This document shows, piece after piece, positions 4,633-36,947 of a stretch of DNA of 64,000 nt. Under the pieces are notes generated by a model, which was not told where the DNA came from, did no database searches, and saw nothing but the letters and a program-made list of their open reading frames with translations. This stretch comes from Lagopus muta (lineage: Eukaryota; Chordata; Aves; Galliformes; Phasianidae). Position 1 is the stretch's first letter. Every line of letters begins with the position of its first letter. Location: NCBI RefSeq assembly GCF_023343835.1, contig NC_064436.1, positions 70,857,545 through 70,921,544 of the forward strand, written 5' to 3'. A program made the translations under genes and the position numbers.

Positions 4633-7600
4633 TCAGGAGACGTGGGGCGAGGGCCGCCAGAAGCACCACTTGCTGCGGGTGTGCTGCTTGCGCTGCAGCT
4701 GCTCCTCGCGCTCCCGCTCCTTCTTGGAGCGCAGGTACAGGTCCTCCTCCTTCAGGTACCACACCGGCGGCCAGCGGTGCCTCTCGAAGTGCGCCTGGTT
4801 CTCTGCGGGGCGCGGGAGCTCAGCGCACAGCCGGCCGGCCGCCCCCTTCCCCCCCCGGACCCCGCACCGCCTGCGCCCTACCCGGGGACATGAACTTCAT
4901 CTCTCGGGGGAAGCGGCGGCACACGCTGTTGTAGTTGGTGCAGATGTAGTGCAGGCACCAGGCGGCCAGCTGCCGGGCGTTGTGGAACTGCGGGGACCCC
5001 CATCAGGACGGGCCGAGCCGGGGGTCGATGCCCCTCAGCCCCCCTTCCCGTACCTGAGTCATCTCCAGGTAGATGAGCACCTGCTCGTCGATCTCCACCT
5101 GCTGCATGAAGGCGCGGAGCAGCTCATCCACGGCGTACTGCTCTGCGGCACGGATGGGGCCGTGAGCGCGGGGCGACGCCGGGCTGCGACGGCTCTTACA
5201 TAAGGGCCGTGCCGAGGCCGCCCGGGGCCGCATCGATCCCAGCGCCAGCCGGCCCTCATTGTATCGGCGGCTGACGTCAACGGGCGGCCGGGGGGGGAGG
5301 AAAGGGGGGCGGCTCACCTGTGAGCGCCTGCAGCCGGGGCAGGCAGAGGCGGTTGGTGAGGATGAGCAGCTCCATGGCGTCGAGGTCGGGTGTGGGCGTG
5401 AAGACCCCGGTGTAGAGGAAATCGAGGACGGCACGCAGGCAGGCGCAGTTGGTGCCCGGCAGGGAGACCTGCGGGACAGGGGCGCGGGGACCGGCGCTGC
5501 GGGAAGGACGGACCCCCACCCGGAGCCCCGCGCGGCCGGACCCGAGCGCAGGGATGCCGTGGGCGCAGCGCCGTGCCGGCTGCTCCCCGCAGCAGCCCCC
5601 TCCCACCGTCCCCTCCCAGACGTCCCGCCGCCTGCTGCCCCCTCACCTCGGCAGCGTAGCTCTCCCGGAACGCCCCCCGGAACATGGCCATCATCCAGTC
5701 GCAGCCGGCTATCAGCAGGGGTTTGTGCGCCGGCACGGCCCCGTCGTCCACGCGGAACACCACGTCTGGGCAGCACGGGGACGCGATGCACAGCCCGCAA
5801 TGGCGCTGCCACACGGGCGCCGTGGGGTGGGGGGCTGGGGGGGGGGCCGTGAGCACAGCAGAGGGGCGCCCCGCGTGGCCGCGCCGTACCTGCAAAGACG
5901 CCCTTCCCCAGGCACTCCTTGATGCGGTTGGCACGGCGCACATGGAAGGCTTTGGTGATCTCCTGGTTCATGAAGCTCTCCTTGTTGAGCACGTTGGCCA
6001 CCATCATGCGCAGGTCGAACACCTCCAGCAGCTCGGCGATGGTGGCCACCTGCATCAGGTCAGCGCACGTCCGCTCCAGCCGCCCGGTGTAGAGGTACTC
6101 CAGCACGGCGCGGAACGGCTCCGGCGCCACCGAGCGGTCCATGCACACCACCGTCATCCTCTTCTCCCTCCCGGCCACCGGGTCGGCCACCACCTCCCAG
6201 CGCATGCTGACGAAGCCCCGGCCCCACGCGGACAGATCGCGAGCGCCATCCCCCGTCGCCGCCCGCAGCGCCTCGTCGCTCTGCACGGCGCGCAGCCCGA
6301 CCTGCGGCCCCTCGCCCAGCGCCCCCCGCTCCCCGTCCAGGCTGCGGGCGCGGGCGGCCGGCTCCTTGCCCGTCCCCAGCGGCCCCTCCAGGGTGAAGAG
6401 GTCGTAGAACTTGGAGCAGGAGGTGGCCAGGTAGACGCGGTGCGCGAAGACGCGCTGCCCGCCCTGCAGCTGGAAGACGACGTCGGCGCACAGCGGGGTG
6501 CAGAAGAGCGCGGCGGGGCCCCAGGCGCGGCTGGCCGGCGGCTCGGGGATGCGGATGACCGGCGGGGGGGGTTTGGGGGGCAGGAAGGGCGCCTGCAGCA
6601 ACGGGCGCTGCATCTTCTTCAGGTGGGACTTCCAGAACTGCAGGTGGCGGCGGGAGATGAGCGCGGCGCGGATGGCGTTGTCAAAGACGTCCTTGATGCC
6701 GAACTGGGCCACCACGCTGGTCTCGTAGTAGGGGACGCCCAGCTCCTTGGCCACCTCGTGGCCCCGCTCCGGGGGCAGGATGTCCGTGGGTCGGATGGGC
6801 CTGGGGGGACGGCAGGGGAACTCAGCACCACGTGTGGGACCCGCTGATCCAGAGGATAGGGGACCCTGTGACTGGGGGGGGGGCCGCTGAGCATAGGGGA
6901 CCCAGAGAGCATATAGGGGGCCTGGTGACCGGGTGGCACCCGCTGAGTGTAGGGACCCAGTGACTGTGGGAGCCCCAGCCCTGCCACCCCCCCGGCGCAG
7001 CCTCACTTGGCCAAGGGCCGCCTGGCACGGTTGACGGCGTCCAGGTCGGCGTAGCGCAGGTCCAGCTGGCAGCCCACCAGGATGATGGGCGTCCGCGGGC
7101 AGAAGTGTTTGATCTCAGGGTACCACATGGTCTTCACGTGGCGCAGGGAGTTGGGGTTGGCAAGCGAGAAGCAGAGCACCACCACGTCTGACCTGGGCCA
7201 GGAGGAGGAGGAGGAGGAGGAGGAGGAGGAGGAAGGTCAGAGCCCTGCACCAGCCCCCTGAGCACCAGCATGGAGATACCCGCAGTCAGCAGCAGAAGGG
7301 ACCCGGCCCCACGCTGTGCCCCACATTGGGGTCCCGCAGGGCATTGGGAGCAGCCCCAGAGCCACGGCTGCTTTCTGCCTGGGACGTGACCAGGAGCAGC
7401 GCTGGAGCCGGGCCGGTGCCAGGCCCAAGATAGACACCACCCGCCCGCCCTCGGGCCCCCCGCCAGCACGGGAGCTGCGAGCGATGCCGGCACCCAGAGC
7501 CCTGCAGGACAGCAGCAGTGAGCGGGGGTCACTGGGTGGCTGTGGGCACCCCACACCATGGCATTCCCCACGACCCCCCCCCACCCCAGGAGCCCCCTGC

Positions 7601-8765
7601 CCCATCGGGTGCCCCCAGCCCCATGGAGGGGTTGTGGGAGTGTGCCCACAAAGCTGGCACGGGGGCAGCGATAGCAGAGGGGCCGTGCCAGGGGTTGAGG
7701 GCCGTGCTTGTTTACAGCCTGGGCATTGCGCGGGGGGGTCGGGCCTTGCCCTGCTCAGCCATGGGGCATCGGGAGCTGAGAGGTGGGCCAGGACCCTACA
7801 GGGGGGGCCAGGACCCTACAGGGGGGGCCAGGACCCTACGGGGCACTGCACACTGCAGGGACTGGGGGGTGTGAGCCGGGCACAGCGGACTCTGCGGTGT
7901 CCCGATGCCCCCCCTGCGGTATGTGGGTCCCCAACAGCCTCAGAACCCCCAGGAGTCCCCTGGGACCCCACCGCCACGTGATGGCACCTCTATGGGAGAA
8001 CCTGCAGGGGGAAGGGAGGATCCCTCCCGAAGGCGAGGTCCCTCCTGGGGGTGTCTGCAGGTCTTTGCAGGGGGGTCTCCTGCACGGAGGAGGTCTCACC
8101 CAGGGGGGTGCGTTCTCTCCCGGGGTGGGGGTCTCTCCCGGAGGGTGGTTCCCCAGCTGGAAGGCTTAACCCGGGGGGAGGTCTCTCCTGGGATGGGGGG
8201 TGGGCAACCCCCGGGGGGGGGGGTTCTGTCCTGATCTGGTATCTGGTCTCTCCCAGAGAGGCTCTCACCCACAGAGGGTCGCTCCCTGGGGGGGGTGGGG
8301 GGGTCTCACCCACGGCAGTGTCACCCGACGGGGGTGTCCCCAGTCCCCAGTGCCCCTCCCGGGGGTTCCCTTCGGGGCCCCGCCCCCTACCTGCCGTAGG
8401 CGAAGCGCCGGTCCTTGTGGTGGTCCCCGAAGGTGTCCCAGAGCCGCAGCGACACGCTGACCTCGTCCACCACATCGCGGGAGCGCTCCAGCACCTGGAG
8501 GGGGGGCGCGGAGGGGGGCGGGGGGCACTGAGCGTGGCCCGGCGAGACCCCGCCGCCCCCCCCGGCCGCGCACCTCCTGGCAGACGCGGTACTGGTCGAT
8601 GGCCCACACGGTGGGCACGTGCGTGGCCAGCAGCTGGTATTGGCTCAGCGTCGCGTTGCAGGCGCGGGCGCAGATGAGGCGCGTTTTGCCCACCGCGTTG
8701 TCGCCCACCACCACGCACTTGATGGTCTCGACGTTGGGCCGCTCGTAATCCACGTCCAGGTCCAT
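4633..8765 (-). CDS. RHOBTB-family atypical Rho GTPase (third vertebrate paralogue)
   Basis: Nine coding exons close exactly to 675 residues: 8574-8765, 8391-8494, 7007-7192, 5890-6800, 5647-5765, 5318-5468, 5054-5142, 4882-4987 and 4633-4802. The Rho-like GTPase domain (about 1-205) has P-loop [11 protein letters not shown] and [17 protein letters not shown] proline stretch leads to BTB1, interrupted by a variable insert (about 250-410), then BTB2 (about 455-575). The C-terminus ends [19 protein letters not shown] proteins are known CUL3 ubiquitin-ligase adaptors with little GTPase cycling. The protein mixes features of both human paralogues: SVVAQFG and [16 protein letters not shown] match RHOBTB2, while HRVYLATS and KWCFW match RHOBTB1. 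It is shorter than either (696 and 727 aa). I therefore call it a separate paralogue rather than an orthologue of either. It is divergent from the drebrin-like gene and shares its promoter region. Confidence 0.88.
7201..7234. repeat. (GGA)n microsatellite beside a RHOBTB-like splice acceptor
   Basis: About 11 GGA/GAG triplets lie immediately upstream, on the gene strand, of the acceptor of the exon at 7007-7192. On the transcribed strand this is a TCC polypyrimidine tract and may serve as the acceptor's pyrimidine run. Confidence 0.8.
7793..8310. repeat. Short G-rich tandem repeats in a RHOBTB-like intron
   Basis: At 7793-7845 a unit of about 19 bp (core GGGCCAGGACCCTACAG) occurs in three to four copies. 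From about 8030 to 8310, degenerate units built on TCTCyCgGGGtGGGGG recur. They lie between the exons at 7007-7192 and 8391-8494. Confidence 0.7.
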
Positions 8766-36600: not shown

Positions 36601-36947
36601 GAGGTGCGCCGCAGCCGCCGCTTGGCCTTGGCCTTGAGCCGCGCTTCGTGCAGGAGTTTCTCCGGGGGAGCCCAGAGCCGCGCCCCCCCGGCGCCGTCCT
36701 CCCCCTCTTCTTCTTCCCCCTCCTCTTCTTCCTCCTCCTCCTGCTGCTGCTGCTGCTCCGCGCTCGGGCCCTGCGTGCACGGACGGCCCGTCACCGCGCA
36801 CCCCGACGGGACCCCCGCGACCCCCTCCCACCCACCGGCCCCGGCGGGGAACCCCCGGCACCGCTCCGGGGCTCCGCTCCCGATACTTGCCGAGGCGAAC
36901 GGGGCGCGGGCGGTAGCGCCCGGCTCGGCCGTGCTGGCGGCGGACAT
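33685..36947 (-). CDS. PDCD4-like protein (second vertebrate PDCD4 paralogue)
   Basis: Ten exons close exactly to 508 residues: 36479-36947, 36299-36396, 36101-36214, 35662-35883, 35479-35576, 35288-35402, 34367-34474, 34193-34303, 33987-34126 and 33685-33736. Human PDCD4 has 469. The N-terminus (MSAASTAEPG) is new and carries poly-Q and poly-E tracts. Then come KAKRRLRRTSSRDS, GKGRGLPKKGGAGGKGVWG, two MA3 domains (about 205-325, EYFEHGDTGEV and LALEGKASHRELTSRLLSDL; about 370-490, EYLLCGEVSEAERCLRALEV) and the C-terminal GRKRFVSEGDGGRVKQ. PDCD4 MA3 domains bind eIF4A and block translation initiation. The beta-TrCP degron of PDCD4 (DSGRGDS) reads DSAREPP here. Divergence and location, together with my recollection that chicken PDCD4 maps elsewhere, argue for a separate paralogue. 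Confidence 0.9.
34655..35010. repeat. 14-bp minisatellite (GGGGATCTGGTGTG)
   Basis: About 25 units of GGGGATCTGGTrTG, some with an added TGGCA or TGGTA, lie in the PDCD4-like intron between exons 34367-34474 and 35288-35402. Confidence 0.92.

Follow-up and report, generated by a model that had tools for sequence, protein, structure and literature searches.

Three genes of the LBX2/TLX2 block in Lagopus muta as probable ohnologues kept by fish, amphibians and sauropsids and apparently lost in mammals

Why should a gene block of a galliform bird hold three genes where its human counterpart is not known to have any? The stretch that raises this question, hereafter the window, comprises 64,000 nucleotides of Lagopus muta (NC_064436.1, positions 70,857,545-70,921,544; contig C7 in our own-genome searches, which covered an assembly of 1.03 Gb). 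It carries a RHOBTB gene (RHOBTB4), a third member of the drebrin family (drebrin-like) and a relative of PDCD4 (PDCD4-like). To our knowledge human 2p13.1 is without all three. We propose, with a probability of about 0.9, that the trio are ohnologues of the LBX2/TLX2 arm of the LBX/TLX paralogon, functional in fish, amphibians and sauropsids and lost towards mammals. The early vertebrate genome duplications would have left three ohnologues in one block: RHOBTB4 beside RHOBTB1 and RHOBTB2, a second PDCD4, and a third drebrin in addition to DBN1 and DBNL. The ancestor of fish and birds would already have had RHOBTB4 and drebrin-like in the interval from WDR54 to RTKN, PDCD4-like would share a chromosome with both in several amphibians and reptiles, and all three would have been retained by fish, amphibians and sauropsids and lost on the mammal line. 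The three genes were modelled as follows.

4633..8765, minus strand: RHOBTB4, 675 amino acids, from splice sites and frame, Pfam and tree
8765-8574, 8494-8391, 7192-7007, 6800-5890, 5765-5647, 5468-5318, 5142-5054, 4987-4882, 4802-4633, minus strand: the nine coding exons of RHOBTB4
10380..14130, plus strand: third drebrin-family gene, exons 1-11, from GT-AG splice sites and frame, Pfam Cofilin_ADF and a tree on the first 302 amino acids
10380-10465, 11097-11149, 11234-11346, 11491-11565, 12020-12157, 12239-12316, 12390-12541, 12645-12699, 13053-13127, 13204-13336, 13405-14130, plus strand: exons 1-11 of drebrin-like
14236-14344, 14535-14590, 14677-14750 (stop TAG), plus strand: probable last three exons of drebrin-like, from open reading with one weak donor; uncertain, a best guess
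33685..36947, minus strand: PDCD4-like, 468 amino acids with stop, from splice sites and frame, two Pfam MA3 domains and tree
36947-36891 (GC donor), 36770-36479, 36396-36299, 36214-36101, 35883-35662, 35576-35479, 35402-35288, 34474-34367, 34303-34193, 34126-33987, 33736-33685, minus strand: the eleven coding exons of PDCD4-like

The preliminary description of this DNA had claimed three intact genes in phase, and all three are indeed present, with their modelled exons open and the Pfam domains found. Every RHOBTB4 intron is GT-AG and the reading frame is complete with a stop; a broken frame at the fourth intron was ruled out, as a CCCAG acceptor restores the frame. The introns of PDCD4-like are GT-AG except the first, where the frame requires a GC-AG donor at 36891 (exon end gcctcg, intron start gcaagt). 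The RHOBTB4 protein contains a Pfam Ras domain (16-207) followed by two BTB stretches, the PDCD4-like protein two MA3 stretches, and the N-terminus of drebrin-like, of which the first 302 amino acids were used for the Pfam scan and the tree, a Cofilin_ADF domain. Homologues were listed for the three proteins up to 120 matches each (360 rows, 15 of them nameless and the names shortened). The nearest database protein of PDCD4-like is from Lagopus (98%) and that of drebrin-like from Tympanuchus (95%), and a curlew protein (P0001) shows 93% identity to the window RHOBTB over its full length. The passerine RHOBTB4 rows (P0011-P0040) are mostly of about 640 amino acids, some 35-40 below other birds, which may reflect either the loss of a part or faulty gene models. 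It could be argued that these are decayed copies that only seem intact, either pseudogenes or products of assembly error in very GC-rich DNA, given a content of guanine plus cytosine (G+C) of 0.72 in the window, a G+C at third codon positions (GC3) of 0.90-0.95 and several bird rows that are shortened or of low quality. We consider this highly improbable: the modelled exons are open and bounded by splice sites, the curlew protein matches from end to end, and whole frames lie on short contigs that look like transcripts (638 amino acids on 2,180 bases for P0242, 454 on 2,061 bases for P0155).

The exon structure relates these genes to their known paralogues in the same bird. In the window RHOBTB, each of the 8 junctions comes to within about 3 residues of a stretch border of the bird's own RHOBTB1, and 9 of 10 PDCD4-like junctions lie at the borders of its own PDCD4. 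For drebrin-like, the first five of nine junctions coincide with DBN1 borders and the others fall inside or outside the matched DBN1 stretches. The window genes are duplicates at the DNA level, and retrocopies are ruled out by the intron positions common to these genes and their paralogues. The gene spans have 70-75% G+C (drebrin-like counted to 13336; the GC3 given above refers to the modelled coding parts), and the stretches compared have 37% for RHOBTB1, 42% for PDCD4 and 59-67% for RHOBTB2, DBN1 and DBNL. High G+C has been described for loss-prone 'elusive' genes in studies of gecko (PMC5901865) and human (PMC10208646).

Are the three genes old, or did they arise within birds? The RHOBTB tree (30 rows, 673 columns) places the window gene in a RHOBTB4 clade of 26 rows (support 100/99), comprising 7 teleost rows from 6 species, 5 amphibians, 5 squamates, 3 turtles and 6 birds; it mainly follows the species tree and several of its fish rows bear the source name rho related BTB domain containing 4. 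Outside it are RHOBTB1 (100/100) and RHOBTB2 (100/99), each represented by the human protein and the bird's own. The PDCD4 tree has 32 rows, in which the known paralogue is represented by human and own PDCD4; a 100/100 split separates these two from 30 PDCD4-like rows, which include the shark Hemiscyllium, coelacanth, lungfish, reedfish, paddlefish and gar. Likewise, 25 window-type rows of the drebrin tree (29 rows), including coelacanth, reedfish and sturgeon, are separated from DBN1 and DBNL at 99/97. The public records, in which the bird proteins are labelled '2-like', 'drebrin-like' and '4-like', could suggest duplications of RHOBTB1/2, DBN1 and PDCD4 confined to birds or sauropsids, as could the 485 of 671 aligned residues that the window RHOBTB shares with human RHOBTB2. 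We give this origin next to no credence, since the window genes cluster with proteins of fish and amphibians, zebrafish shares the order of RHOBTB and drebrin-like, and approximately unbiased (AU) tests reject the joins that it implies. Joining bird PDCD4-like with own PDCD4 is rejected (p 3e-44), as is joining the bird window RHOBTB with RHOBTB1 (7e-131) or RHOBTB2 (7e-9) and bird drebrin-like with DBN1 (6e-41) or DBNL (1e-41). At the level of amniotes, the joins of PDCD4-like with PDCD4 (3e-4), of RHOBTB4 with RHOBTB1/2 (0.002) and of drebrin-like with DBN1 (0.005) or with DBN1 plus DBNL (0.008) are rejected as well. Recent bird duplicates, or orthologues of RHOBTB1/2, DBN1 and PDCD4 themselves, were the outcomes that the preliminary description had named as fatal to its proposal; the tests speak against both, and the genes form clades of their own with fish and amphibians.

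The neighbourhood provides further evidence of age. The flanking genes were located by tblastn with human proteins as queries, and are as follows.

285..2720, plus strand: WDR54, four stretches, best E 4e-32
15594..22540, minus strand: RTKN, nine stretches, best E 4e-37
27978..28100, plus strand: zinc-finger part of INO80B, E 3e-15
29063..29670, plus strand: WBP1, E 2e-43
30804..33239, minus strand: MOGS, two stretches, best E 0.0
48826..49017, minus strand: LBX2 homeodomain, 80% identity to human LBX2 vs 58% to the TLX2 homeodomain at the same place
63298..63554, minus strand: two exons of PCGF1, E 1e-21

The order is thus WDR54(+) RHOBTB(-) drebrin-like(+) RTKN(-) INO80B(+) WBP1(+) MOGS(-) PDCD4-like(-) ... 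LBX2(-) ... PCGF1(-). A gene list for a zebrafish chromosome 5 deletion (PMC9210284, Table 1) gives wdr54, rhobtb4 (synonym rhobtb2a), si:dkey-40c11.2 and RTKN, so that, as far as this table goes, the order WDR54 - RHOBTB4 - drebrin-like - RTKN is identical in zebrafish and bird; the same neighbourhood in fish was an outcome that the preliminary description had named as support. The WDR54-RTKN part of the block therefore dates at least to the bony-vertebrate ancestor. The zebrafish genes are connected with the clades through names: the cyprinid P0089 lies in the RHOBTB4 clade and the reedfish P0324, named si:dkey-40c11.2, in the drebrin-like clade. RHOBTB and drebrin-like also bear adjacent tags on one contig in the teleost Albula goreensis (AGOR_G00049520 and 00049510) and adjacent tags in Columba livia (Q9966_012073 and 012072), and in Rhinatrema, Anolis sagrei, Elgaria, Rhineura and Lacerta agilis the three proteins are from contigs of identical length, so that we take all three genes to lie on one chromosome there. 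For crucian carp, PDCD4A and PDCD4B are named as separate proteins (PMC11170284), which indicates that fish possess two PDCD4 types; the fish rows of the PDCD4-like listing in which an a or b suffix is visible are 4a. A survey of the Chinese alligator counted four RhoBTB genes (PMC11477308), a number that fits an extra RHOBTB member.

Elsewhere in the window, MRPL53 gave nothing above 27 bits, and neither did remnants of FGF or NPM near LBX2 (FGF8 and NPM1 as queries), including the approximately 14 kb that separate the exon matches of LBX2 and PCGF1 (49100-63200). Teleosts are described as retaining Fgf24 and Npm4 at the LBX2 locus (PMC2446394).

The distribution of the paralogues in the same bird bears on how the trio arose. 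Own RHOBTB1 lies on contig C8 at 38.76 Mb and PDCD4 on the same contig at 56.6 Mb, together with RTKN-like exons at 39.2 Mb (40-44% identity) that we take for RTKN2; C30 carries RHOBTB2 at 3.69 Mb and DBNL at 0.22 Mb, and DBN1 was located on C17 at 9.85 Mb. Lysyl-oxidase domains were found on C7 at 71.02, C8 at 52.73 and C30 at 3.65 Mb, and also on C13 and C59. Wotton and others (PMC2446394) described four LBX/TLX paralogons, on chicken chromosomes 6, 4, 13 and 22; with C8, C7, C17 and C30 as their presumed counterparts, the distribution seen here fits these four. The preliminary description had pointed to paralogues of the flanking genes on human 10q, together with RHOBTB1 and PDCD4, and to DBN1 in 5q35; in the bird, too, the contigs of the paralogues are compatible with such partner blocks. 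To this has to be added DBNL, which sits on the RHOBTB2 contig.

The DBNL locus (C30:217500-227400, locus L043) shares its contig of 4.69 Mb with RHOBTB2 and a lysyl-oxidase gene. This linkage suggests that DBNL is itself an ohnologue of DBN1 from the LBX/TLX paralogon, and DBN1, DBNL and the window drebrin are possibly one set. Human DBNL, at 7p13, would then have been moved.

Old single-gene duplications in an early vertebrate, as opposed to whole-genome duplication, would also give ancient clades, and are compatible with trees that are without an outgroup root and in which splits after the gnathostome crown are not all rejected. We regard them as unlikely, because three families occur in one block, their paralogues lie on contigs that fit one paralogon as described in PMC2446394, and introns are shared, which makes separate events improbable.

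Is the trio absent from mammals? The visible names of the 360 matches listed include no mammal, barring two Oreochromis clusters (P0346, P0357) that carry a ferret label. As teleost proteins are listed at 65-76% identity in the RHOBTB and PDCD4-like listings, these should also contain a mammalian orthologue if it had evolved at an ordinary rate.

Several observations weigh against the whole-genome-duplication origin and subsequent loss proposed here. The sets are without an invertebrate outgroup and without fish RHOBTB1/2, DBN1, DBNL and PDCD4, which leaves the root unfixed, and the seven teleost RHOBTB rows form one side of a 100/100 branch, with which a root at that place is compatible. Because of this composition of the sets, later splits at the level of tetrapods or sarcopterygians were left unrejected: the AU tests do not reject tetrapod (0.17) or sarcopterygian (0.30) PDCD4-like with PDCD4, nor tetrapod drebrin-like with DBN1 plus DBNL (p 0.08). 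The drebrin tree came with a warning of long DBN1 and DBNL branches meeting. The trees hold no zebrafish sequence, so that the ties of the zebrafish genes to the clades are by name only, and in the table of PMC9210284 rhobtb4 is on the opposite strand. The assignment of C17 to the paralogon is presumptive. Finally, the trio is apparently lost in mammals on the basis of absence among the matches listed, not of a genome scan. The vertebrate-root depth claimed in the preliminary description accordingly stands in part: the age is shown as far as the bony-vertebrate ancestor, with a shark protein on the PDCD4-like side, and the trees alone leave room for a split among tetrapods.

What would these proteins do? 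From its domains, PDCD4-like would clamp eIF4A with its two MA3 domains and so restrain translation. Its close orthologue P0121 matches the human PDCD4 structure 8xxl. Positions 210, 253, 414 and 418, which with 249 we take to be eIF4A contacts, are as in human PDCD4 in the alignment (414 is D, or E in three fish), and at position 249 the E of human and own PDCD4 is replaced by D. The window protein and 22 aligned rows keep S67, the S6K1 site, and RFVSEGDGG, with the second kinase site, occurs in 116 of the 120 PDCD4-like rows listed. The degron of PDCD4 has been reported as D70-SGRGDS-76, with the consensus DSGXX(X)S (PMC6539695). It is visible in the alignment in human and own PDCD4; the pattern DSG, 2-4 residues and S was found in none of the 120 PDCD4-like rows listed, anywhere in the protein. 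The S6K1 region could be anchored in 111 of these rows, the others being without that match and some of them partial, and in 93 of the 111 the core at the place of the degron is RDST, RDSA, RNST or RDSN; the tree contains 29 of the 120. Judged by its sequence at the degron, the window gene is PDCD4-like and not PDCD4. Variant degrons without glycine exist in other proteins, and the loss may therefore be a mere weakening; either PDCD4 gained the motif or PDCD4-like lost it. A PDCD4-like protein without the beta-TrCP degron should escape the removal via S6K1 and SCF-beta-TrCP that clears PDCD4. We tentatively suggest, at somewhat less than even odds, that non-mammals have two eIF4A brakes, one destroyed on growth signals and one immune, and that mammals lost the second together with the third RHOBTB and the third drebrin, leaving PDCD4 turnover as the sole gate. 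The alligator PDCD4-like protein P0153 bears the record name 'transcription factor LBX2 isoform X2', so that two neighbours of the block may have been confused.

RHOBTB4, with its two BTB domains, would by its domain content count among the atypical Rho GTPases and serve as a substrate adaptor for CUL3; CUL3 binding is known for the family from the work of others cited in PMC11477308. A PDB search with the RHOBTB4 protein gave no RHOBTB chain among the best 60 of 226 matches, which included Rac/Cdc42-type chains.

The drebrin-like protein would bind the sides of actin filaments via its ADF-H domain and charged helix, and its duck orthologue P0244 matches the human drebrin chains 5y1z (ADF-H) and 9tg8 (helix). 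A hidden SH3 exon in the bird gene was ruled out by tblastn over the 64 kb, where the best match (E 0.004) is interrupted by a stop and not credible. The SH3 query matches 33 of the 120 drebrin-like rows listed, from teleosts, reedfish and two caecilians, and a third caecilian row (P0328) has SH3 in precomputed Pfam; there are no named amniote rows with SH3 among the 120, and coelacanth, sturgeon and axolotl rows are also without it. Pfam agrees with the query for the eight rows checked. This patchy distribution reflects either repeated losses or records that are in part short isoforms. The amniote protein would have lost an SH3 domain that in fish would connect it to partners. DBN1 is likewise without SH3, and the bird gene, which is not filed as DBNL for want of a C-terminal SH3, may nevertheless belong to the drebrins. 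A Cofilin_ADF family scan of the bird's own genome listed neither the window gene nor the drebrin loci on C17 and C30, all of which were listed with a human DBN1 query. By eye, an intron of drebrin-like seems to contain the 3' end of a CR1 repeat, at window positions of about 12720-12930.

These families have been much studied in mammals, as a tumour suppressor of translation, an actin binder of dendritic spines and an epilepsy-linked CUL3 adaptor. All three have an extra ancient member that is invisible to mammalian work. Orthology changes accordingly, as bird, reptile and fish records under '2-like', 'drebrin-like' and 'pdcd4a' are separate genes, and the degron difference offers a way to gauge how paralogue-specific the regulation of PDCD4 is. 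The genes are already in databases piecemeal, as zebrafish rhobtb4, fish pdcd4a and '-like' labels in birds, and lost duplicates are a familiar category, which the trio enlarges; the absence of the degron pattern from the PDCD4-like rows listed and the SH3 pattern of the third drebrin are new here. We found no paper title or abstract start treating the trio in open-licence PubMed Central, supplements being outside the search. From a RhoBTB review (PMC4931677), the words fish, zebrafish, vertebrates, chicken, Xenopus and duplication are all absent. An avian gene-loss study was restricted to ohnologues with human orthologues (PMC12954441), and with such a set could not detect the trio.

How does the trio compare with known systems? 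LBX2, TLX2, LOXL3, PCGF1 and AUP1 (PMC2446394) belong to the same block and share the duplication history that we propose; that survey began from human gene content, and its main text is without RHOBTB, RTKN, drebrin and PDCD4. The elusive genes of the FoxG2 type (PMC5901865) resemble the trio as early-vertebrate duplicates lost in some amniotes and lying in GC-rich, gene-dense ground, but are defined there as missing from both mammals and birds, with reptiles retaining them, whereas the trio is kept in birds. Zebrafish rhobtb4, si:dkey-40c11.2 and fish pdcd4a correspond to the window genes in that fish proteins of the same names share their clades, the first two lying between wdr54 and RTKN; the si:dkey-40c11.2-type rows of fish mostly have SH3, unlike the bird drebrin-like gene. 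Human drebrin (5y1z, 9tg8) has the ADF-H domain and charged helix of drebrin-like, which is identical to DBN1 at 135 of 297 residues. Human PDCD4 (8xxl) has two MA3 domains, as PDCD4-like does, and of the two only PDCD4 carries the DSGXX(X)S degron.

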